In this document: positions 7,612 to 18,952 of the stretch, one piece after another
Layout of the letters: each line of letters begins with the position of its first letter
Numbering within the stretch: the stretch's first letter is position 1
From: a virus
IMG/VR virus record: IMGVR_UViG_3300034062_003542
Coordinates: 1 to 26,176 of that record
Strand: one strand, 5' to 3'
Length of the DNA stretch: 26,176 nt
Translations under genes and position numbers: made by a program
Notes under the pieces: generated by a model
What the model was told of the DNA's origin: nothing
Database searches by the model: none
The model's input: only the letters and a program-made list of their open reading frames with translations

Positions 7612-8784
7612 ATGGCAACAGACTATAAAATTTTAGGACAAGCGCAAGGTGTAAATGCACCAGCACAAGAAAATATAAATCTTTATCCAGATCCAAACCA
7701 CGAAAGATATACTTCAGAATTTAACCCAAACGCTAACGCAACAAATGCTGTTGGAAATGCAAATAACAGTATCTGGGTCTGGGATCCAGCAAGCCATAAC
7801 ACATCACACGCAGAACAACACTGGCCTATGGGCAACTCTACTCATGGAGGAGCACAGGCATCTGGAAGAACAGGATATGTTAGATTTTCTTCACATGAAA
7901 ATACTGGAGGATCACACTCACAAGGCGTAGGCCACGCAAGATCTTGGTTTCTAGATCCAGATAGAACTGGAACACTGACTGCTGGAAAAACATACACAAT
8001 TAATCTTTGGGCACACGCTACAGTTGATTCTCATAATCACCACGCACAACATGGACAAAATAGCTTACAATTTTGGGATGGAGCTTCTTGGCAAATTGTA
8101 GTTGGAGGATTTGCAAGTCAGGTAGCAACCCATCTTAACAACGTAGACAATACCCATGCTGGTATTAATCAAATTCAAACAGATGCTGCTGGCAATAGAC
8201 AGGCCTGGGCTGCTGGCTGGTGTAGATATTATAGAACATTTACAGCACAAGCAACAGATAAATTTAGAATGAGAGTTAATCTAGGAAGTCACAACTCTGG
8301 CGTATGGCAGAGGCTTTCCTTAGATAACGTATATGTTGCAGAAGGAGCAATTCCACGGGCACTTATCCCAGATAAAGCTCCTGACGGAACAAGCGGAAAT
8401 CCCATAGCTATTCATACACCACCTTTTACGACAAGAGCAGAAGGATGGGCTGCATTACCATATCAATCTCCAACAACAAGAAAGTTTACAGGAGAATGGC
8501 AAACTGTTTACCAGGTTCCAGATCTTGCAGGTGCAAGTGCAGTATGCTCTACATTAACAATTACAAATACTGGATCTACTGCAAATACATATAGAGTAGC
8601 AATTCAAAAGTTTGGTGAAACTCTTACACATAAGCATATAATTGCTTTTGACCATAATTTAGCAGCTCAATCTCTTGAGACACTAACACTTGGTGTAACA
8701 TTAGGAAGACAAGATAAGCTAATAGTTCAATCAGACTCAGAAAGAATGTCATTCTCTCTATTCGGATCGGAAAATACCCTATAA
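7612..8784 (+). CDS. Carbohydrate-binding jelly-roll tail adhesin (cassette A)
   Basis: This 390-residue protein starts 'DYKILGQAQG', a motif common at the head of phage minor tail proteins. The central region (about 30-260) resembles a carbohydrate-binding module jelly roll ('GKTYTINLWAHATVDSHNHH' to 'RLSLDNVYVAEGAIPRALIP'). The C-terminal beta domain (about 285-390) has 'WQTVYQVPDL', 'STLTITNTGSTANTYRVAIQ' and 'LIVQSD..RMSFSLFGSE'. It is paralogous along its length to the gene at 15763. The central domain is strikingly histidine-rich, and its paralogue keeps a His cluster at the equivalent place. AGGAG near 7600 supports the start. The stop overlaps the next ATG (TAATG). Confidence 0.68.
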   Translation: MATDYKILGQAQGVNAPAQENINLYPDPNHERYTSEFNPNANATNAVGNANNSIWVWDPASHNTSHAEQHWPMGNSTHGGAQASGRTGYVRFSSHENTGGSHSQGVGHARSWFLDPDRTGTLTAGKTYTINLWAHATVDSHNHHAQHGQNSLQFWDGASWQIVVGGFASQVATHLNNVDNTHAGINQIQTDAAGNRQAWAAGWCRYYRTFTAQATDKFRMRVNLGSHNSGVWQRLSLDNVYVAEGAIPRALIPDKAPDGTSGNPIAIHTPPFTTRAEGWAALPYQSPTTRKFTGEWQTVYQVPDLAGASAVCSTLTITNTGSTANTYRVAIQKFGETLTHKHIIAFDHNLAAQSLETLTLGVTLGRQDKLIVQSDSERMSFSLFGSENTL

Positions 8785-9425
8785 TGACAAGAAGAGTAGT
8801 TGGAGGAGTAGCTGGTACAAGCACAGTTGTAACACAAAACAACTCCTCATATGTATTACTTGCAGAAACAACAAATACTGCTTCAGTAAATCCTTTTAGC
8901 GGAATGTCAAATCCAGTAATGCTTGATGGAACAGGCACAGTTACTTTTGCAAACATTCCACAGACATATAGGGATCTTAAAGTTCAGCTTTCTTATATGT
9001 CACATAACACTAACAACGATTCCCAGTATAGATTTACTTGGTGGTATAACAACGATAATACAAATCAAAGATACTATTCTCGTGGAGGTACTCAGGCAAC
9101 TGGTACTCCAGGATGGAATGCTGACAACGTAGATAGACTTTATGGATGGTATAGCTATAATCATTTAAATCGTGGAAGAAGCTGGTCAAGTAATGGAGAA
9201 ATTATAATTCCAAACTATTCTACAACCCTTAAAACAAATCATAGGGGTGCTTATGGCGTTCATTTTAACATGGAATCATTAAGCTATCCAACACAATGGG
9301 GATGGAATTATTACAATGCTGATGTTGTAAAGCAACCAGTTACCCGTCTAGACTTTTCCTGGGAAAGCGATGTTAAGTTTAGCGAAGCATCCAAAATAAC
9401 TCTTTACGGAATTGGCGCAAAGTAA
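8784..9425 (+). CDS. YGI-type tail tip protein (cassette A)
   Basis: This is a 213-residue protein. The first 55 residues ('TQNNSSYVLLAETTN') act as a linker or anchor. The YGI domain then begins with 'FANIPQTYRDLKVQLSYMSH' and ends 'ITLYGIGAK'. The copy at 16859 matches it closely, including 'RYYSRGG', 'ATGTPG' and 'FSWESDVKF'. Translation is coupled to the preceding gene through TAATG. It is Trp/Tyr/Asn-rich, as expected of a glycan-contacting surface. The probable role is a receptor-binding subunit working with the jelly-roll protein encoded just upstream. Confidence 0.65.
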   Translation: MTRRVVGGVAGTSTVVTQNNSSYVLLAETTNTASVNPFSGMSNPVMLDGTGTVTFANIPQTYRDLKVQLSYMSHNTNNDSQYRFTWWYNNDNTNQRYYSRGGTQATGTPGWNADNVDRLYGWYSYNHLNRGRSWSSNGEIIIPNYSTTLKTNHRGAYGVHFNMESLSYPTQWGWNYYNADVVKQPVTRLDFSWESDVKFSEASKITLYGIGAK

Positions 9426-9428
9426 AAA

Positions 9429-9452
9429 TAGTGTATAATATAAACGGAGGAA
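9429..9452 (+). promoter_or_regulatory. Promoter plus ribosome-binding block, copy A
   Basis: TATAAT at 9434-9439 is followed by GGAGG at 9446-9450 and the ATG at 9456. The whole 24-nt block is identical at 17492-17515 before the paralogous gene, although the flanking genes have diverged. This points to functional constraint or recent shared origin. Confidence 0.6.
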
Positions 9453-9455
9453 CAA

Positions 9456-10895
9456 ATGCCATCTACATATAATTTATTCGAAAGATACGGGTTTACATCC
9501 CCTGCCGAAACGGGAGAAATTCTTTATGCTCCTGTAAAGAACGGCCTTGGAGTATCAATTCAACAGGGAACTACAAATCAGATATACTCATTTGATGCCA
9601 CAGCAGATTATGCAACATTTACAACAACTGGTTTAACCGCCTACTACGACCCACATTTTGGAACAGTAGGAGTTGGATGCCCAAAGTATACAATTGATGG
9701 ATCAAACCCTTCACCAACAATTAAATTTCCTTCAGCAAATTATTTTCAAACATCGGCGGACACATATAAAACTGGACAGTTAGCAATTTGGTCAGAATAT
9801 GCACTTCAATTTAGATTAGATCTACAGCTTCAAAATGATTCAAATACTCAAGTTGGAGGAGTAGATAGCTCTTCAGTTATTACACTAGTTCCATATCAAT
9901 GGAATACTATTACAGTAACAACATCAACCAACTCTACTAAGTTTTTGATGACATTAAATGTAATGAACACAACCTCAGCAGATTATGGTAAAAAATTCTG
10001 GATTGATGATATTCAGGTTGAAAACTTAAGATATGCAACTCCACCAACAAATGGAGTTACAAGAGTTGCTGGAGACTGTTCATTTTCTGTTCCAAACTGG
10101 GGTGCAGACTATACTGTAACTGGATGGACAATAATTGGCCCACAATGCAGCGCAGCTGCAGGTGGAACACATACATTTTTTACTCTTTATAAGACAAACT
10201 CATCTTATGCAACAATGAGATATCAAGAGGGTGCTACAAGAGTAAATGCTTTCAAAGATGATACCGACCCAAACACAGACATATCTATAACATCAACAGA
10301 TTATGCACCTGGAGATCTAGTATTCTTCGCTCTTGTTCATAATGCAGGAACCTTGGTAGCATATACAGCAAAAAGTGGTGGGTCAATATCTTCTGTATCG
10401 GGAAATACCGAATGGGAAGGCTTCGATAGGATTTTTGTTGGAGAAGATCCAGTAAATAGTCTTTTTGCGAATGCACCAATTGAACAGTTATTATTCTGGG
10501 ACGAGGCTTTAACACAGGAAGAAGTTACAACAATATTTAACTCATCTGCAGCCTATGACTTTAACACAGATAAGAGAATCGTGTTTGCTTTTGCAACACC
10601 TACAACTGCAGGAACATCTAAAGCCATCAGCACATTTTCTACTGGTTTTTATAGAAATTTAGACAGAACAGCTTCTTTAGATATAATTCCTTTAAATGGG
10701 CTTGCTGGAACAATTTCTACAACAACTGGATTTTCTGCCGCCACACACATTGTTTATGGAGGAGATGTTACTAAATTATACTTAAACGGAATAGTTGCAA
10801 GCGGATCTAATCTACAAACTGCAAATATTTATAGAGTTTTAGGTATTAAAACAAACCCTGGCGTAGGATCAGTTGCCTACCTAGTTAAAATTTAG
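9456..10895 (+). CDS. LamG-like tail adhesin (cassette A)
   Basis: This 479-residue protein opens 'TYNLFERYGF'. Residues about 20-195 form a beta-sandwich resembling carbohydrate-binding modules ('YKTGQLAIWSEYALQFRLDL' to 'KKFWIDDIQVENLRY'). Residues about 205-370 form a LamG/concanavalin-like domain, with 'IGPQCSAAAGGTHTFFTLYK' and the hallmark 'FWDEALTQEEVTTIFN'. A smaller beta domain closes the chain ('IYRVLGIKTNPGVGSVAYLV'). The gene at 17519 is a full-length paralogue. It has its own promoter and a strong GGAGG site, so it can be expressed separately from the cassette start. Expected role: glycan-binding tail appendage. Confidence 0.68.
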   Translation: MPSTYNLFERYGFTSPAETGEILYAPVKNGLGVSIQQGTTNQIYSFDATADYATFTTTGLTAYYDPHFGTVGVGCPKYTIDGSNPSPTIKFPSANYFQTSADTYKTGQLAIWSEYALQFRLDLQLQNDSNTQVGGVDSSSVITLVPYQWNTITVTTSTNSTKFLMTLNVMNTTSADYGKKFWIDDIQVENLRYATPPTNGVTRVAGDCSFSVPNWGADYTVTGWTIIGPQCSAAAGGTHTFFTLYKTNSSYATMRYQEGATRVNAFKDDTDPNTDISITSTDYAPGDLVFFALVHNAGTLVAYTAKSGGSISSVSGNTEWEGFDRIFVGEDPVNSLFANAPIEQLLFWDEALTQEEVTTIFNSSAAYDFNTDKRIVFAFATPTTAGTSKAISTFSTGFYRNLDRTASLDIIPLNGLAGTISTTTGFSAATHIVYGGDVTKLYLNGIVASGSNLQTANIYRVLGIKTNPGVGSVAYLVKI

Positions 10896-10903
10896 GAGAA
10901 TAT

Positions 10904-11071
10904 ATGTCAGTAACGTATCATGGATCAATAGAAAACGAAGAGGTTATGAGAATTGGCCTTGGGTTAACATGTATAGTTCCAGTTAATTCAAAGGAAGTTC
11001 AAGACTGGATTGCCAATGGTGGCGAAATAATTCCAATTACAGTACAGCCAGTTCAACCAGAAGACGAATAG
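10904..11071 (+). CDS. Small conserved cassette-end protein (A)
   Basis: This 55-residue protein runs from the ATG at 10904 to the TAG at 11069-11071 and is preceded by AGGAG at 10893-10897. It opens 'SVTYHGSIENEE' and carries 'EVQDWIANGGEIIP' followed by a Pro/Gln tail. The W(I/V)A-x-G pattern is common at the ends of small phage proteins encoded after tail fibres. The gene at 18961 holds the matching position in cassette B and has 'SLWVAEGNIIGE', so the two may be diverged counterparts. An assembly-helper role is possible but unproven. The gene is followed by a terminator. Confidence 0.6.
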   Translation: MSVTYHGSIENEEVMRIGLGLTCIVPVNSKEVQDWIANGGEIIPITVQPVQPEDE

Positions 11072-11093
11072 TCTATAGATAAGTAATAAAAAA

Positions 11094-11120
11094 TAGCCCT
11101 AAAAAGGGCTAGACTTTTTT
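11094..11120 (+). terminator. Intrinsic terminator closing adhesin cassette A
   Basis: TAGCCCT (11094-11100) pairs perfectly with AGGGCTA (11105-11111) around an AAAA loop. Then GAC and six T residues follow. It separates cassette A transcription from the halogenase promoter just downstream. Confidence 0.75.
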
Positions 11121-11130
11121 GATTTTAAAT

Positions 11131-11138
11131 GGTAAAAT
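11131..11138 (+). promoter_or_regulatory. Extended -10 promoter of the halogenase cassette
   Basis: TGGTAAAAT ends at 11138, identical to the boxes before the genes at 7192 and 21016. A start site near 11145 gives a leader of about 40 nt before the halogenase ATG, unlike the leaderless promoters nearby. Confidence 0.55.
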
Positions 11139-11141
11139 ATT

Positions 11142-11164
11142 CATATATATATAAGTTATATATG
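11142..11164 (+). repeat. Inverted repeat in the halogenase 5' leader
   Basis: CATATATA (11142-11149) and TATATATG (11157-11164) are perfect inverted 8-bp arms around a 7-nt spacer. They lie just after the -10 box. This could be an operator, an mRNA hairpin or AT-rich coincidence. Confidence 0.4.
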
Positions 11165-11184
11165 TATTTAAAGAAAAGAATAAT

Positions 11185-12780
11185 ATGAGCGAAATAAACA
11201 GTATTGCAATTGTTGGTGGCGGATCTTCTGGATGGATGACTGCAGCCACACTTATTCATGCATTCCCAAATAGAGAAATTACTTTAATTGAAAGCCCTAA
11301 TATTTCAACAGTTGGTGTTGGAGAAAGTACACAGGGGGCGGTTACTCAATGGGTAAAAAGTCTTGGAATAGACCATAAAGATTTTATGCAATATACAGAT
11401 GCTTCATATAAAATGAGCATTAAGTTTACAGATTTTCATAAAAAGGGCGATAAAGGATTCCACTATCCGTTTGGCACAGCATATTTTGGTGACTCTCAAT
11501 ATGGTGCAAAAGACTGGTACATGAAAAAAGCTAAGTATCCAGAAACTCCAGTTCAAGATTATTGCAATACATTCTTTTCTCAAATGGCATTAGTAAATAA
11601 AAATAAAATTAATACTAACAAGTACGGAATATTTAATGATTTTAGTTTCTATGACGCTTCAGCGTTTCATTTTGACGCAACCAAGTTCGGTCTTTGGCTA
11701 AGAGATAGGTATGCTCTTCCTAGAGGAGTTAAGCATATTACAAAAGAAGTTTCAAAGATTAATACTGGTGATATTGGAATTACATCACTTACCCTGGAAG
11801 ATGGTTCAGACTTTAAAGCAGATTTATATATTGACTGTACTGGATTTAAGTCTATGTTACTAGAAGAAACACTAGGGGTCGAATTTGAGGATGCTTCAGA
11901 TAAACTCCCTTGTAATCGTGCATGGGCCACCCAAATACCATATGTTAATAAAAAAGAAGAGATTGAAAACTTTACAAACTGCACAGCTCTTGGGTACGGA
12001 TGGGTTTGGAATATCCCATTATATTCAAGAATTGGTACTGGATATGTTTATTCAGATAAATTCACAACTCCAGAAGAAGCTCTAGAAGAATTTAAACAGC
12101 ATTTAAAGGAGAAAAAGGATCCAATATATGCTCCAGACCGTGACTTTAGTAATGTAGAGTTTAAAGACATTAAAATTAAAACTGGAATTCACAAAAAATT
12201 ATGGGAAAAGAATGTCGTAGCTCTAGGTCTTTCTGCAGGATTTATTGAGCCTTTAGAAAGCAATGGCCTTTATACAGTTCATGAATTTTTAAGAGTTTTA
12301 GTTAAGTCATTAGATAAGGGATTTTCTACACAATTTGATAAAGATTCTTATTCGTACGAATGTAGAAAAATATTTTATGGCTTTATGTACTTTGTTCAAA
12401 TGCACTATACATTAAGTAGAAGAGACGATACAGATTTTTGGAAGTATATGACTTCGCAGTCAATTGATTTAGAAAATACAACTAGCGCATATAATCATGT
12501 ATCTTCAACAAGAACTCAATACCAGTCAGATTATGAAACAAATAGCGGCATACACTGCATTGCAACTGGTCATCATAACTTTACTTATGGAAATTATATC
12601 AAAGAAACATTTAATGCTTATTCTGGACAAGACGCAGATATTGCTGTAGAAGGATTTATCTGGAAGACAGATCAGTCAAAGAAAAAGTGGGAAGAAGAAG
12701 CTGATCTTTCACCAAGTCACTATGAGTATTTAAGAGATAATTTTCACTCTAACAAAGAAGATATAGATGAAGAGGTTTAA
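11185..12780 (+). CDS. Flavin-dependent (tryptophan-type) halogenase
   Basis: This 531-residue protein has the length and landmarks of flavin-dependent tryptophan halogenases, which use FADH2, O2 and halide to form hypohalous acid and halogenate an electron-rich ring. The FAD GxGxxG motif is GGGSSG at residues 11-16. 'VGVGEST' is at 43-49. The Lys that guides the hypohalous acid in this family (K79 in PrnA) matches K76 in 'DASYKMSIKF'. 'DCTGF' is at 217-221. The diagnostic WxWxIP appears as WVWNIP at 273-278, and 'GFIEPLES' at 352-359 places the catalytic Glu at E358. All key residues are intact, so activity is plausible. Phage precedent exists: VirX1 of a cyanophage. No flavin reductase is visible, so the host would have to supply FADH2. 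The substrate is unknown. The ribosome-binding site is weak (AAGAAAAG). Confidence 0.9.
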   Translation: MSEINSIAIVGGGSSGWMTAATLIHAFPNREITLIESPNISTVGVGESTQGAVTQWVKSLGIDHKDFMQYTDASYKMSIKFTDFHKKGDKGFHYPFGTAYFGDSQYGAKDWYMKKAKYPETPVQDYCNTFFSQMALVNKNKINTNKYGIFNDFSFYDASAFHFDATKFGLWLRDRYALPRGVKHITKEVSKINTGDIGITSLTLEDGSDFKADLYIDCTGFKSMLLEETLGVEFEDASDKLPCNRAWATQIPYVNKKEEIENFTNCTALGYGWVWNIPLYSRIGTGYVYSDKFTTPEEALEEFKQHLKEKKDPIYAPDRDFSNVEFKDIKIKTGIHKKLWEKNVVALGLSAGFIEPLESNGLYTVHEFLRVLVKSLDKGFSTQFDKDSYSYECRKIFYGFMYFVQMHYTLSRRDDTDFWKYMTSQSIDLENTTSAYNHVSSTRTQYQSDYETNSGIHCIATGHHNFTYGNYIKETFNAYSGQDADIAVEGFIWKTDQSKKKWEEEADLSPSHYEYLRDNFHSNKEDIDEEV

Positions 12781-13489
12781 TACAAAAAAAATAAAGTTTT
12801 TAGTAAGTGGATTTAATCCAGGTTCTCTTTTAGAGCATTCTGATATTCCTTCTCCTTCAAAAAACTTTCTTCCAGAATGGTATAAGAATACTAAAAAAAC
12901 TAGAAAAGATTCAGCAGAAACCGCATCTAAAACAAATATAAAAGATTGCATGCCTTTTGCAGACACGCTTCTATCTGGATATACTTGGACACTTCCATCA
13001 GATGTTTACGTTGAAAGAGTTCCTGGAGAAAAACCAGCACCAAAAATAAATTTTAATAAAGATCTAGATTATATTAGCAATAGAGATCCAAAAAGCGCAG
13101 GGCTAATGGATGTTCCAGACGGATGCTATGATATACATTTTTTATGGAAACACCCCCTACACATTCAAACTCCACCAGGATATAGTGTTTTAATAACACA
13201 GCCATTAAACAGGCACGATCTGCCATTTATATCCCTGTCTGGAATAGTTGATACAGATGTGGTTCCATTAAGACCAGGCAACTATCCATTCTTTTTAAAG
13301 AAAAGTTTTGAAGGAATGATTCCAAAAGGAACACCAGTTTTGCAAATTATTCCAATAAAAAGAGAAAATTGGATTTCAGAAAAAGATACTGACTTATTTA
13401 AAACATGGCAAATGAATACCTATGATGTTAAATCACGATTAAGTGGATGGTATAAAAAACAATTTTGGCAAAAGAAATCTTATAACTAA
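12767..13489 (+). CDS. Conserved phage protein of unknown function (DUF6065-like)
   Basis: This 240-residue protein overlaps the halogenase end by 14 bases, so the two are probably co-translated. Recognisable blocks are 'LPEWYKN' (35-41), 'DCMPFADTLLSGY' (60-72), 'PPGYSVLITQPLNRHDLPF' (136-154), 'GNYPFFLKK' (171-179), 'FEGMIPKGTPVLQIIP' (181-196) and 'KRENW' (198-202). I recall the same blocks in hypothetical proteins of cyanophages and other large phages, and tentatively link them to DUF6065. No function is known to me. There is no signal peptide, membrane helix or classical cofactor motif. The coupling suggests work with the halogenase, for example on substrate or product, but that is inference. 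The stop overlaps the next ATG. Confidence 0.65.
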   Translation: MKRFNTKKIKFLVSGFNPGSLLEHSDIPSPSKNFLPEWYKNTKKTRKDSAETASKTNIKDCMPFADTLLSGYTWTLPSDVYVERVPGEKPAPKINFNKDLDYISNRDPKSAGLMDVPDGCYDIHFLWKHPLHIQTPPGYSVLITQPLNRHDLPFISLSGIVDTDVVPLRPGNYPFFLKKSFEGMIPKGTPVLQIIPIKRENWISEKDTDLFKTWQMNTYDVKSRLSGWYKKQFWQKKSYN

Positions 13490-13782
13490 TGCTTAAGCCC
13501 AAAGATATAGTTCAGGTAACTAAGCAGTTAGGTCATAAAGAATACTGGAATATGACAAACACCATAGAGTTTTGGGCATTTTCTACAAAACTAATGATCA
13601 TATTTCCAGGATTGATCCTAGGAATCCAGTTCTGGTGGCTGTACATATTTGCCCTAGTTTCAAGTCTAGCTTTAATTCTTACTTCAACCGTCAAGACCTT
13701 GCCAACAATCATATACTTCAATGTTGGCTGGACCATACTAGCTTCCGCTGCAATAGCTAAACATTTTGGACTTATACTTTAA
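13489..13782 (+). CDS. Small three-helix membrane protein
   Basis: This 97-residue protein begins with a polar N-terminus (1-26) and then has three predicted membrane helices at about 27-47, 48-66 and 70-90, joined by very short turns. It starts on the TAATG of the preceding gene, making it the third member of the halogenase transcript. Similar 'FWAFSTKLMIIFPG' style proteins are, as far as I recall, uncharacterised viral proteins. It is not a typical holin: there is no charged tail and it is far from the lysis gene at 12. It could anchor the cassette products at the host membrane or move a substrate or product. This is speculative. Confidence 0.6.
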   Translation: MLKPKDIVQVTKQLGHKEYWNMTNTIEFWAFSTKLMIIFPGLILGIQFWWLYIFALVSSLALILTSTVKTLPTIIYFNVGWTILASAAIAKHFGLIL

Positions 13783-15762: not shown

Positions 15763-16857
15763 ATGCCAGAGTATATTAAAATTTTAGGACAAGTAACAGC
15801 ATCAACAGCTGGACCACTTCAACAGCTAAGCATGTTTCCAGATCCAAACGGAGAATTTGCTACAACAGATGTAACATTTGCACATCCAAATCAAAGCCCA
15901 CTTTTTGGTGTCCCAACAGATAACGGTGGTGGAGTTAACTCAAACTGTCAGGTTGGATACTCTGCATCAAGATTCGCACCAAATTCTGCAAACGCAGGAG
16001 GCAGAACAAACTCCTTTTTTACATCAACACATAGCGATAACATGAGACCTTTATGGAAAATGAGTACCAATACAACTGGACTAGAAAGACCATTTCTAAA
16101 ATCTGGTCAAGTTTATACTATGTCATTTTGGGCAAGATCAGAAGGCGGTAGCCACTGGAATAGTCATCATGGACATGGCGGAATTCATTATTCAAGAGGT
16201 GCTGGACTATACGACATTATTCCTTATACAAGTAGCGTAACAGATCACGCTTATAGCGGATATGGCTGGAATGATGATAGTAGTATACAGAATAACTGGA
16301 AACAATGGTATGCAACATTTAACGGTGAAGGCGGATTTTTTGACCTACAAGTTCAAATGAGAAATCATAGCTTTAATGCATGGACATATTTCTACTTTGA
16401 TAATTTTACAATTTTAGAAGGCGCTGTTCCAAAAGCACTTCTTCCAACAAGACCATTAGACGGGGCTTCTGGAAACGCAAATGCCCTCTATACGTCACCA
16501 TATACAACACGTTCTGAAGGCTGGTCTTCTTTAGAGTATAGATCTCCAACAATTAGAAAAGTAACTGGAGCCTGGCAAACACTTTATACTGTTCCAGATA
16601 ATAGAACAGCAGTAGCCTCAACTTTAGTTATAACAAATTATGGAACATCTTCAGCAACTTATAGAATTGCAGTACAAAAATATGGTGAAGCATTAGCATC
16701 TAATCATATATTAGCTTTTGACCATCCAATTATACAAACATCAAGTGAATCTATGAGTATAGGACTTACACTTTCAGCTGGAGATAGAGTAATAGTTCAA
16801 TCTGATACAAATAAACTTAACTTCCAGCTATTCGGTGCAGAACAGACAGTAGGATAA
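15763..16857 (+). CDS. Carbohydrate-binding jelly-roll tail adhesin (cassette B)
   Basis: This 364-residue paralogue of the gene at 7612 shares the opening 'YIKILGQV' with 'FPDPNGEF', the jelly-roll landmarks 'GQVYTMSFWARSEGGSHWNS' and 'FYFDNFTILEGAVPKALLP', and the C-terminal domain ('WQTLYTVPDN', 'STLVITNYGTSSATYRIAVQ', 'VIVQSDTNKLNFQLFGAE'). The central loops differ most, but a histidine cluster (GSHWNSHHGHGG, near residue 129) is kept at the equivalent place. It is probably a glycan-binding tail appendage. GGGAG upstream supports the start. The next gene begins two bases after its stop. Confidence 0.68.
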   Translation: MPEYIKILGQVTASTAGPLQQLSMFPDPNGEFATTDVTFAHPNQSPLFGVPTDNGGGVNSNCQVGYSASRFAPNSANAGGRTNSFFTSTHSDNMRPLWKMSTNTTGLERPFLKSGQVYTMSFWARSEGGSHWNSHHGHGGIHYSRGAGLYDIIPYTSSVTDHAYSGYGWNDDSSIQNNWKQWYATFNGEGGFFDLQVQMRNHSFNAWTYFYFDNFTILEGAVPKALLPTRPLDGASGNANALYTSPYTTRSEGWSSLEYRSPTIRKVTGAWQTLYTVPDNRTAVASTLVITNYGTSSATYRIAVQKYGEALASNHILAFDHPIIQTSSESMSIGLTLSAGDRVIVQSDTNKLNFQLFGAEQTVG

Positions 16858-16858
16858 T

Positions 16859-17488
16859 ATGACAATCAGAAAATCGGGGGGAACGCTAGCTACTTCTGTT
16901 CAAAATAATTCATCATATGTTTTAATTGCTGAAACAAGCCCTCTTTCTGGAACAAAAAATCTTGCTAGTGGTATGACTAACCCACAAATGGTAGACGGGA
17001 CAGCACAGTTAACGTTTGATAATATTCCTCAAATATATCGGGATCTTAAAATTCAGTTTGCTTACATGTCTCACAATACAGCAAATACATCTCAGTATAG
17101 AATTTCCTGGTGGTATAACAATGACACCACAAACAATAGATATTATTCTCGTGGAGGTACAGTTGCAACTGGTACTCCAGGACATAACTCAGACAACACA
17201 GATAGACACTATTTTATGTACTGCAGAAACCACACACAGACATCATGGGGATCAGTTGGAGAGATAATAATTCCAAATTATTCAACAGCATGTCCATCAA
17301 ACTTTAGAATGGCATACGGAACTTCTTGGAATATGAACAGCTTAGACTATACAATTCCATGGGGCTTTAACTACTACAATAACGCAGCAGCAGCACTACC
17401 TGTAACCCGTCTTGATTTTTCATGGGAAAGCGATGTTAAATTTAAAGAAATATCAAAGATTTCAATCTACGGTATAGGCGCAAAATAG
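16859..17488 (+). CDS. YGI-type tail tip protein (cassette B)
   Basis: This 209-residue paralogue of the gene at 8784 matches it through most of its length: 'QNNSSYVLIAET', 'FDNIPQIYRDLKIQFAYMSH', 'WWYNNDTTNNRYYSRGG', 'LDFSWESDVKF' and the closing 'SIYGIGAK'. Differences concentrate in the middle third (residues about 115-175). It is likely expressed together with the jelly-roll gene upstream. No enzymatic motif is seen. Confidence 0.65.
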   Translation: MTIRKSGGTLATSVQNNSSYVLIAETSPLSGTKNLASGMTNPQMVDGTAQLTFDNIPQIYRDLKIQFAYMSHNTANTSQYRISWWYNNDTTNNRYYSRGGTVATGTPGHNSDNTDRHYFMYCRNHTQTSWGSVGEIIIPNYSTACPSNFRMAYGTSWNMNSLDYTIPWGFNYYNNAAAALPVTRLDFSWESDVKFKEISKISIYGIGAK

Positions 17489-17491
17489 AAT

Positions 17492-17515
17492 TAGTGTATA
17501 ATATAAACGGAGGAA
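17492..17515 (+). promoter_or_regulatory. Promoter plus ribosome-binding block, copy B
   Basis: This block is identical over 24 nt to 9429-9452. TATAAT lies at 17497-17502 and GGAGG at 17509-17513, ahead of the ATG at 17519. Confidence 0.6.
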
Positions 17516-17518
17516 ATA

Positions 17519-18952
17519 ATGGCAACCACATACAACGTATTTGAAAGATATGGAACAGTTAATCCAGAATTAGCTGGAACTCATTTTTATGGTAATTGCA
17601 GATATAACTTGTCACCAGCAATATATCAAGGTACAACTAACACAATTTTTGCTGCTGATGCAACGGCAGATTACTCAACTTTTTCTACAACAGGAATAAC
17701 TGGATTTTTTGACTCACAACATTACATGTATGGAGTAGGTTCAGCTAGATATATGTTAAATGGTGCATCTCCAACACCATTAGTTAGAATGCCATCCTCA
17801 TCTTATTATAATACTGGTCAAGATACTTATAAGACTGGATCGGTAAGAGTTTGGTCAGAACACGCTCTTCAAATGAGATTAGATATTCAAATGTATGACG
17901 GTAGCGGAAATACTGTTGGAGGAACAGATAGCACAACAGTTACATTAACGGCAAATCAATGGAATACTCTACAAGTAACATCAAGCGTTAACTCTGTTGG
18001 ATATTTGCTTTCTCTTAATATTTTAAACTTTAACTCAGGTACAGACACGGGTAAAATATTTTATTTAGATCAGGTTCAAGTAGAAAATTTAAGATATCAT
18101 ACAGTATTTCAAAATTCTTCTTCAAGATCTAATGGTCAAATTAAATATACAATTCCAAAAACTGGTCCAGACTATACAGCTTTAATGTGGACCGTTATTG
18201 GGCCACAATGTAGCGCAGCAGCAGGCGGAACTCATCCATTCTTTACTTTATATAATACATCAACATCTTATGCAACATTAAATTATCAAGAGGGATCAAC
18301 AAAGCTACAGGCGTTTAAAGACGATACAGACCCAAATACAGATATTCAAATAAATGCTGTTAACTATAACCCAGGAGACGTAGTATTTGGAGCTTTAGTC
18401 AACGATGGATTAACTCTTACAATGTATGTAGCTAAAATGGGAGATGCATCTCTTCTGACAACAAATAGCGCAACAGAGTTTGACACCTTTGAGTCTATCT
18501 TCTTAGGACAAGATCCAGCAAATTCACGTTGGGCAAACTCAACATTCGAACAGTTCTTACTATATAATCGTGCTTTAACTCAGGCAGAAGTTTTAGCAAT
18601 ATTTAATTCAGCAACGCCACTAGATTATACATCAGATAGAAGAATTATATTTGCAGCAGCAACGCCGTCAACAATAGCCTCTTACTCTGCACTTGGTGTT
18701 AGTGGAGTTGGTTCATATAGAAATGAAGATATTACAGTATCTCTAGATAGAGTATCTGCCCTTAATTCAAATACAACATACGGTCCAACAGGAGCATCTA
18801 CAGATATGTTTTATGGAACAGATGTTAGAAAATTACAAGTAAATGCTATTATATCTACTGGGTCAAATATATCAACATCAACACTATATAGAGTTGATAA
18901 CATAACTGACACACCAAACCTTGGCCCTATAGCCTATGCGAGTAGAATCTAG
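17519..18952 (+). CDS. LamG-like tail adhesin (cassette B)
   Basis: This 477-residue full-length paralogue of the gene at 9456 opens 'TYNVFERYGT'. It has a carbohydrate-binding-like beta-sandwich to about residue 195 ('YKTGSVRVWSEHALQMRLDI', 'LDQVQVENLRYH') and a LamG-like domain from about 205 ('IGPQCSAAAGGTHPFFTLYN') to the hallmark 'LYNRALTQAEVLAIFNS'. A C-terminal beta domain ends '...IAYASRI'. The block around 'AFKDDTDPNTDI' is almost unchanged between copies, while exposed-loop regions differ. Its own promoter and GGAGG site are conserved with copy A. Confidence 0.68.
   Translation: MATTYNVFERYGTVNPELAGTHFYGNCRYNLSPAIYQGTTNTIFAADATADYSTFSTTGITGFFDSQHYMYGVGSARYMLNGASPTPLVRMPSSSYYNTGQDTYKTGSVRVWSEHALQMRLDIQMYDGSGNTVGGTDSTTVTLTANQWNTLQVTSSVNSVGYLLSLNILNFNSGTDTGKIFYLDQVQVENLRYHTVFQNSSSRSNGQIKYTIPKTGPDYTALMWTVIGPQCSAAAGGTHPFFTLYNTSTSYATLNYQEGSTKLQAFKDDTDPNTDIQINAVNYNPGDVVFGALVNDGLTLTMYVAKMGDASLLTTNSATEFDTFESIFLGQDPANSRWANSTFEQFLLYNRALTQAEVLAIFNSATPLDYTSDRRIIFAAATPSTIASYSALGVSGVGSYRNEDITVSLDRVSALNSNTTYGPTGASTDMFYGTDVRKLQVNAIISTGSNISTSTLYRVDNITDTPNLGPIAYASRI

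Follow-up and report, generated by a model that had tools for sequence, protein, structure and literature searches.

A recurrent, portable phage cassette around a VirX1-type flavin-dependent halogenase

Introduction

What do the halogenases of phages act on, and do they act alone? Cyanophage halogenases and their company with 2OG-Fe(II) oxygenases are already known (PMC2984593, PMC7824862, PMC9964418), and protection from antibiotics or the alteration of host metabolites have been put forward as guesses at the role of phage halogenases (PMC2984593, PMC10452541, PMC9964418). For these enzymes, the reviews covered name neither a natural role nor a natural substrate. VirX1 has been studied for biocatalysis, and the review consulted gives no biosynthetic context for it (PMC8407142). 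The question is raised again by the window analyzed here, 26,176 bases of sequence from an uncultured tailed phage, in which a halogenase gene (hal) is followed by a DUF6065-related gene (duf) and a gene for a small membrane protein (mem). A preliminary description of this locus had suggested that the enzyme belongs to a pathway and does not work alone. The features discussed below are collected in Table 1.

Table 1. Features of the halogenase locus and its upstream region (positions in the window)
Feature	Position	Strand	Basis or remark
Three tail genes	7612..10895	+	directly upstream of hal; divergence like that of the cassette; one exchange block 7612-13782
Intrinsic-terminator-like stem-loop with T-run	11094..11121	+	7-pair stem, 4 G-C pairs, T6; ends the upstream tail unit
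Sigma-70-like promoter TAGACT-17-TAAAAT	11110..11138	+	overlaps the terminator tail; position kept in L002
Inverted repeat CATATATATATAAGTTATATATG	11142..11170	+	between promoter and start codon
hal, VirX1-type flavin-dependent halogenase (apparent), 531 aa	11185..12780	+	PF04820, VirX1 as best PDB match, conserved catalytic residues, dN/dS
duf, DUF6065-related, 240 aa, predicted dUTPase fold, invariant Cys61	12767..13489	+	phrog_7084, AlphaFold model, structural matches
mem, three-helix membrane protein, 97 aa, SemiSWEET/MPC-like model	13489..13782	+	invariant columns, dN/dS, predicted model

An apparently intact halogenase

The earlier view of hal as an intact halogenase is borne out by its motifs and by profile comparison. 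GGGSSG occupies residues 11-16, WVWNIP residues 273-278, and K76 and PLES with E358 complete the set of GxGxxG, WxWxIP and catalytic Lys and Glu by which flavin-dependent halogenases are recognized; the lysine is the counterpart of K79 of PrnA and VirX1. The protein matches the Pfam family Trp_halogenase (PF04820) with E=4.5e-104 and phrog_2928 with E=2e-142. Its best PDB match is VirX1 (6qgm, E=3e-100), whose residues 2-529 align with residues 2-523, the C-terminal part included; the two enzymes are 37% identical over nearly the full length. Other solved halogenases can be aligned only up to about residue 420-464, and the alignment to PrnA and RebH ends near residue 420 of 531. In the latter two enzymes, the part holding the backbone of tryptophan comes C-terminal to this point. 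Because the match to PrnA and RebH stops there, free tryptophan would not be the expected substrate. The active site of VirX1 is open and accepts large aromatic substrates (PMC8407142).

In an alignment of 103 viral relatives of hal, K76 is kept in 103/103 sequences, E358 in 93 and the glycines G11, G13 and G16 of the FAD motif in 101, while WxWxIP is largely kept. Judged from its sequence, hal is apparently an intact flavin-dependent halogenase of the VirX1 type. It is very improbable that hal is instead a plain flavin monooxygenase with a retained halogenase-like sequence. NCBIfam does link it to the monooxygenase QhpG, weakly and far under the family cut-off (E=1e-7), but the conservation of K76, WxWxIP and E358 argues against this explanation, as does the fact that the nearest solved relative, VirX1, is a proven halogenase (PMC8407142).

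Two partner genes under purifying selection

The tight overlaps of the three reading frames proposed earlier are present, amounting to 14 nt between hal and duf (12767-12780) and 1 nt between duf and mem (13489). A second virus, L002, carries the same trio in the same place, with amino acid identities of 84, 67 and 98% for hal, duf and mem, respectively; a further contig, L003, is 99.7% identical to L002. Comparison of the window with L002 yields dN/dS values of 0.069 (hal), 0.206 (duf) and 0.015 (mem), with the synonymous sites of the trio near saturation (dS about 1.3). Since the open reading frames are kept at low dN/dS, all three are real genes under purifying selection, which is stronger on mem than on any other gene compared with L002.

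The assignment of duf to a DUF6065-like family is secure at the level of phrog_7084 (E=1e-34) and weak at the level of Pfam, where the match to DUF6065 (PF19541) reaches 15 bits, below the curated cut-off of 26.6; 19 of 60 duf relatives match DUF6065 at E<=0.01. An AlphaFold model computed from the 60-sequence alignment has a mean pLDDT of 88.9. The 50 structural matches listed for this model consist entirely of dUTPases, the best with Z 9.4 and 3.8 A over 130 residues; Foldseek places a dUTPase and a dCTP deaminase first, and the only PDB sequence matches of the duf profile are dUTPases at E about 1. A dUTPase fold can thus be predicted with good confidence, and the model supplies a fold for the phage members of DUF6065, on which no paper was found in the literature searched. 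Like members of the dUTPase/dCTP deaminase superfamily, duf retains loose counterparts of motif 3 (GIVDTD) and motif 4 (GTPVLQ). Unlike them, it lacks motifs 1, 2 and 5, present in just 1, 3 and 0 of the 60 family members, and has instead an invariant cysteine, Cys61, and a helical extension at its C terminus. Because these motifs are absent while the fold is predicted, we conclude that the protein combines a dUTPase fold with a different function and is probably no dUTPase enzyme. Cys61 and Pro190 are invariant in 60/60 family members; the Cys61 codon lies at 12947-12949 of the window, and the residue is constant although mean column identity in the family is only 23%.

That the third gene encodes a three-helix membrane protein, as first described, is upheld by its predicted model. 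An alignment of 38 mem sequences contains 29 invariant columns, including E27, K34, Q47, K69 and N78. The libraries searched hold no sequence-level family for mem, and the gene is absent from the isolate phages of the collection searched. The model (pLDDT 73.5) shows an amphipathic N-terminal helix followed by three helices, as in SemiSWEETs and mitochondrial pyruvate carriers. Its first 15 structural matches are chains of these two kinds, headed by the SemiSWEET 4rng (Z 8.8, 2.1 A over 75 residues), after which scores fall to Z 4.3; among viral models, SemiSWEET/PQ-loop proteins rank first in Foldseek at E near 1. For a helical bundle, a Z of 8.8 is no more than suggestive, and mem differs from these transporters in that no sequence similarity to them was detected and the PQ motif is absent. 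The window contains no match to PF04193 or PF03650, profile comparison of mem with true SemiSWEETs remained at noise level, and an identification of mem as a SemiSWEET by sequence thus found no support. The model is suggestive, at moderate confidence, of a half-transporter resembling SemiSWEETs and pyruvate carriers.

Recurrence in other viruses

Co-occurrence of the genes was scanned with mem as the sole query (neither hal nor duf was used), which retrieved relatives in 333 viral contigs. The mem-bearing loci examined were drawn from the best 80 matches of these 333 contigs, a choice that favours close relatives, and comprised 46 non-redundant loci. Among these best matches, 43 of the 46 loci have hal or duf within three genes of mem; hal is present in 33 and directly adjacent in 26. 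The check proposed in the preliminary description, whether the genes co-occur elsewhere, is strongly positive, and the refuting outcome named there, a lack of co-occurrence, did not materialize. Counted over the matches listed, 34 of 71 mem genes lie directly 3' of hal, nearly always with an overlap of 14 or 11 nt. Gene order is shuffled between viruses: hal-duf-mem in the window, L002 and L236, hal-mem in L056, L061 and L270, hal-mem-duf in L240 and L241, duf-hal-duf-hal-mem in L012, L160 and L298, and mem-hal in L299, while in L271 the genes are on opposite strands. On the halogenase tree, adjacency to mem characterizes 25 of 137 tips and takes 14 changes, against a mean of 23 after shuffling. 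Adjacency is thus scattered over the tree and is not one inherited accident. Many halogenase loci are without mem.

These data establish a recurrent, portable accessory cassette around a VirX1-type halogenase. Since its partner genes recur with hal through many unrelated viruses, the enzyme probably works with both the dUTPase-shaped protein and the small membrane protein. The original proposal of a pathway gains support from these recurring partners and from a duf homologue beside virX1 itself. In the cyanophage Syn10, the source of VirX1, an enzyme of the same subfamily with the same catalytic motifs, a DUF6065-like gene overlaps the 3' end of virX1 by 17 nt. A duf profile from which cyanophage sequences had been left out recognized it at E=1.3e-29. 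Cultured phages yield 15 records with a duf of the Syn10 type, and in 12 of these it adjoins a halogenase. The Syn10 unit differs from the window in other respects. Its third gene (73 aa) has no membrane helix and is unrelated to mem, so that homology of the two was rejected; the unit runs on into about ten genes, annotated as 2OG oxygenases in the relative S-CREM1; and the Stanwilliamsviridae-like group of the window phage is not that of Syn10.

A second comparison is offered by the jumbo cyanophage S-SSM6a, for which a cluster of halogenase and 2OG oxygenases is predicted to make a secondary metabolite (PMC7824862). The likeness lies in a phage halogenase combined with oxidative tailoring enzymes. 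Unlike the cassette, the S-SSM6a cluster is described with carbamoyltransferases, a methylase and phosphatases, and neither a dUTPase-fold protein nor mem figures in the part of its description consulted (PMC7824862). In the openly accessible literature searched, neither the dUTPase-fold partner nor mem nor the overlapping neighbour of VirX1 was found described.

Some members of the duf family occur in other company. A narrower duf profile retrieved 11 bacterial MAG or genome loci, 0/11 with a halogenase in the stretch. DUF6065-like proteins are also found in 49 haloarchaeal tailed-virus records, among them HSTV-2 gp40 (L005, 8001-8633), which adjoins a thymidylate synthase gene with no halogenase in view.

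Genomic setting

Compared with Streptomyces phages of the family Stanwilliamsviridae, identity reaches 56-59% for the portal and 61% for the capsid protein encoded in the window, and this likeness makes an actinobacterial host likely. Tail-fibre and adhesin genes fill the first 19 kb and head genes follow. As the preliminary description had it, the cassette sits in a tail region, with fibre and LamG genes around it and the genes for portal, protease and capsid further downstream. The cassette and the next two genes are bracketed by two tail modules of three genes each (7612-10895 and 15763-18952), which are paralogous (34, 64 and 49% amino acid identity).

Such surroundings raise the main rival to a pathway, namely that hal modifies the tail-fibre proteins encoded next to it, adding halogen to their Trp, Tyr or His side chains and thereby tuning receptor binding or stability, much as 2OG oxygenases at related loci would hydroxylate the fibre proteins there. 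We regard this as a serious possibility, although the less likely of the two. In the window and those relatives that have it at a tail locus, tail-fibre arrays invariably surround the cassette, and cassette or halogenase lies among fibre genes in the window, L002, L004 and cyanophages. Two tail genes of the window, W7612 and W8784, encode Trp/Tyr/His-rich proteins, and hal bears a weak likeness to the peptide-tryptophan oxygenases QhpG and LodB. Glycine-rich fibres are enriched near hal, as are 2OG-Fe(II) oxygenases, which in a count over 75 halogenase loci make up 40% of the genes within three of hal but 7.5% of those six or more genes away (p=3e-32); such an oxygenase lies close by in 58 of the 75 loci. 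The cassette also shares its divergence with the tail genes before it. Relative to L002, dS is 1.2-1.5 throughout 7612-13782, 0.06-0.19 in the genes to the left and approximately 0.4 in those just to the right. High dS common to this block, and lower on both sides, indicates that the cassette and the three preceding tail genes were probably exchanged as a single piece.

Against a role in virion modification stands the occurrence of the same hal-mem pair outside tail regions. In L299 the cassette lies between the genes for DNA primase and ssDNA-binding protein, in a region that also holds a polymerase, and in L270 between those for ribonucleotide reductase (RNR) and an integrase. These contexts led us to reject a tail-specific enzyme as a general rule, and the earlier suggestion of a virion component as target is weakened by them, although it fits the neighbourhood in the window. 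A related halogenase without mem is found among recombination genes in S-B64, and S-SSM7 has a halogenase without mem among sugar and carbamoyltransferase genes. Furthermore, related phages with the same kinds of fibre are without the cassette in the stretch seen, and tail assembly in the cytoplasm needs no membrane partner. In the main text of the virion proteomics of S-CREM1, where 14 proteins are reported, no halogenase is named (PMC9964418). YorD-like neighbours with a PxPSW motif were considered as halogenation targets and set aside, their enrichment near hal not being significant (p=0.19).

The stretch before the portal block is variable in relatives of the window phage and contains fibres, DUF/2OG arrays or hal-duf-mem. 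A search for an empty site gave no clean insertion junction, since the related phages that lack the cassette have different fibres or DUF/2OG arrays at that place. In L163, L181, L194, L198, L204, L206, L213 and L216, a DUF6065-like gene pair interrupts arrays of 2OG-Fe(II) oxygenases immediately ahead of the portal block.

Expression of the cassette

Of the promoter and terminator originally assigned to the cassette, the hairpin with its T-run is well formed (fold z=-2.9 for the region) and the position of the promoter is kept in L002, where it reads TAGACT-17-TATTAT. Less firm are the promoter of the window, which taken alone scores at chance level, and the place of the stem-loop in the family, as it is not kept in L002 and is unique to the window. 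Relatives have near-consensus promoters resembling TTGACA-18-TATAAT, with the -10 box inside a palindrome, and an inverted repeat of this kind lies ahead of 13 of the 32 hal genes that could be tested, compared to 94 of 530 other genes (p=0.004). The conserved promoter position together with the strong promoters and inverted repeats of relatives makes it likely that the cassette is a separate expression unit, a claim for which the promoters of relatives now provide most of the support. Among the features of a moron, a terminator and a weak promoter are present in the window, and related phages are without the cassette in the stretch seen.

The TTGACA promoter with its -10 box in a palindrome was observed upstream of hal in L230, L234, L236, L240, L301, L106 and L119. 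The palindrome arms vary in sequence yet keep pairing. At position 1025 of L301, one copy of the element precedes an apparent tRNA gene.

What the cassette may do

The most economical reading of the recurrent cassette is a pathway module. As to its content, we give roughly even weight to the view that this accessory module, portable between phages, adds halogen to an aromatic molecule of host origin, assisted by a dUTPase-fold partner and a step of membrane carriage. Transcribed from its own promoter, the cassette would supply hal, which would use reduced FAD, oxygen and halide to form hypohalite inside the infected host. K76 and E358 would steer the hypohalite to an aromatic acceptor, which would not be free tryptophan. 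Rather than being a dUTPase enzyme, duf would be dedicated to hal as its partner, binding the acceptor or presenting it. VirX1 is a trimer, and duf might for this reason be a matching trimer. The membrane protein would carry acceptor or product over the host membrane, or hold the reaction there, and in relatives the 2OG-Fe(II) oxygenases may contribute oxidative steps. Infected cells would in this way come to contain a halogenated product, either a small molecule or a compound of the envelope.

A rival view, in which the cassette alters an aromatic compound of the host envelope and so excludes other phages while mem anchors the reaction at the membrane, appears unlikely. It accords with the nearly constant presence of mem near hal or duf, with its conservation far above that of either, and with the moron-like separate expression and varied genomic sites of the cassette. 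The invariant polar residues of mem and its half-transporter-like model, however, suggest more than an anchor. In addition, the defence-system models of PADLOC give no match for the cassette, for which membership of a defence system was consequently rejected.

For the pathway module, a more specific picture can be sketched tentatively: VirX1-like phage halogenases may be the catalytic part of a system in which a dUTPase-fold protein has been repurposed as partner and a half-transporter-like protein acts as membrane carrier, so that in the course of infection a halogenated compound would be made and moved through the host membrane. The conserved, overlapping dUTPase-fold partner of VirX1-type enzymes makes the question of what is halogenated testable, and so does their extremely conserved membrane partner in many uncultured viruses. 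Single phage loci can also hold two or three distinct halogenases side by side, as seen in L012, L083, L084, L124, L160 and L298.
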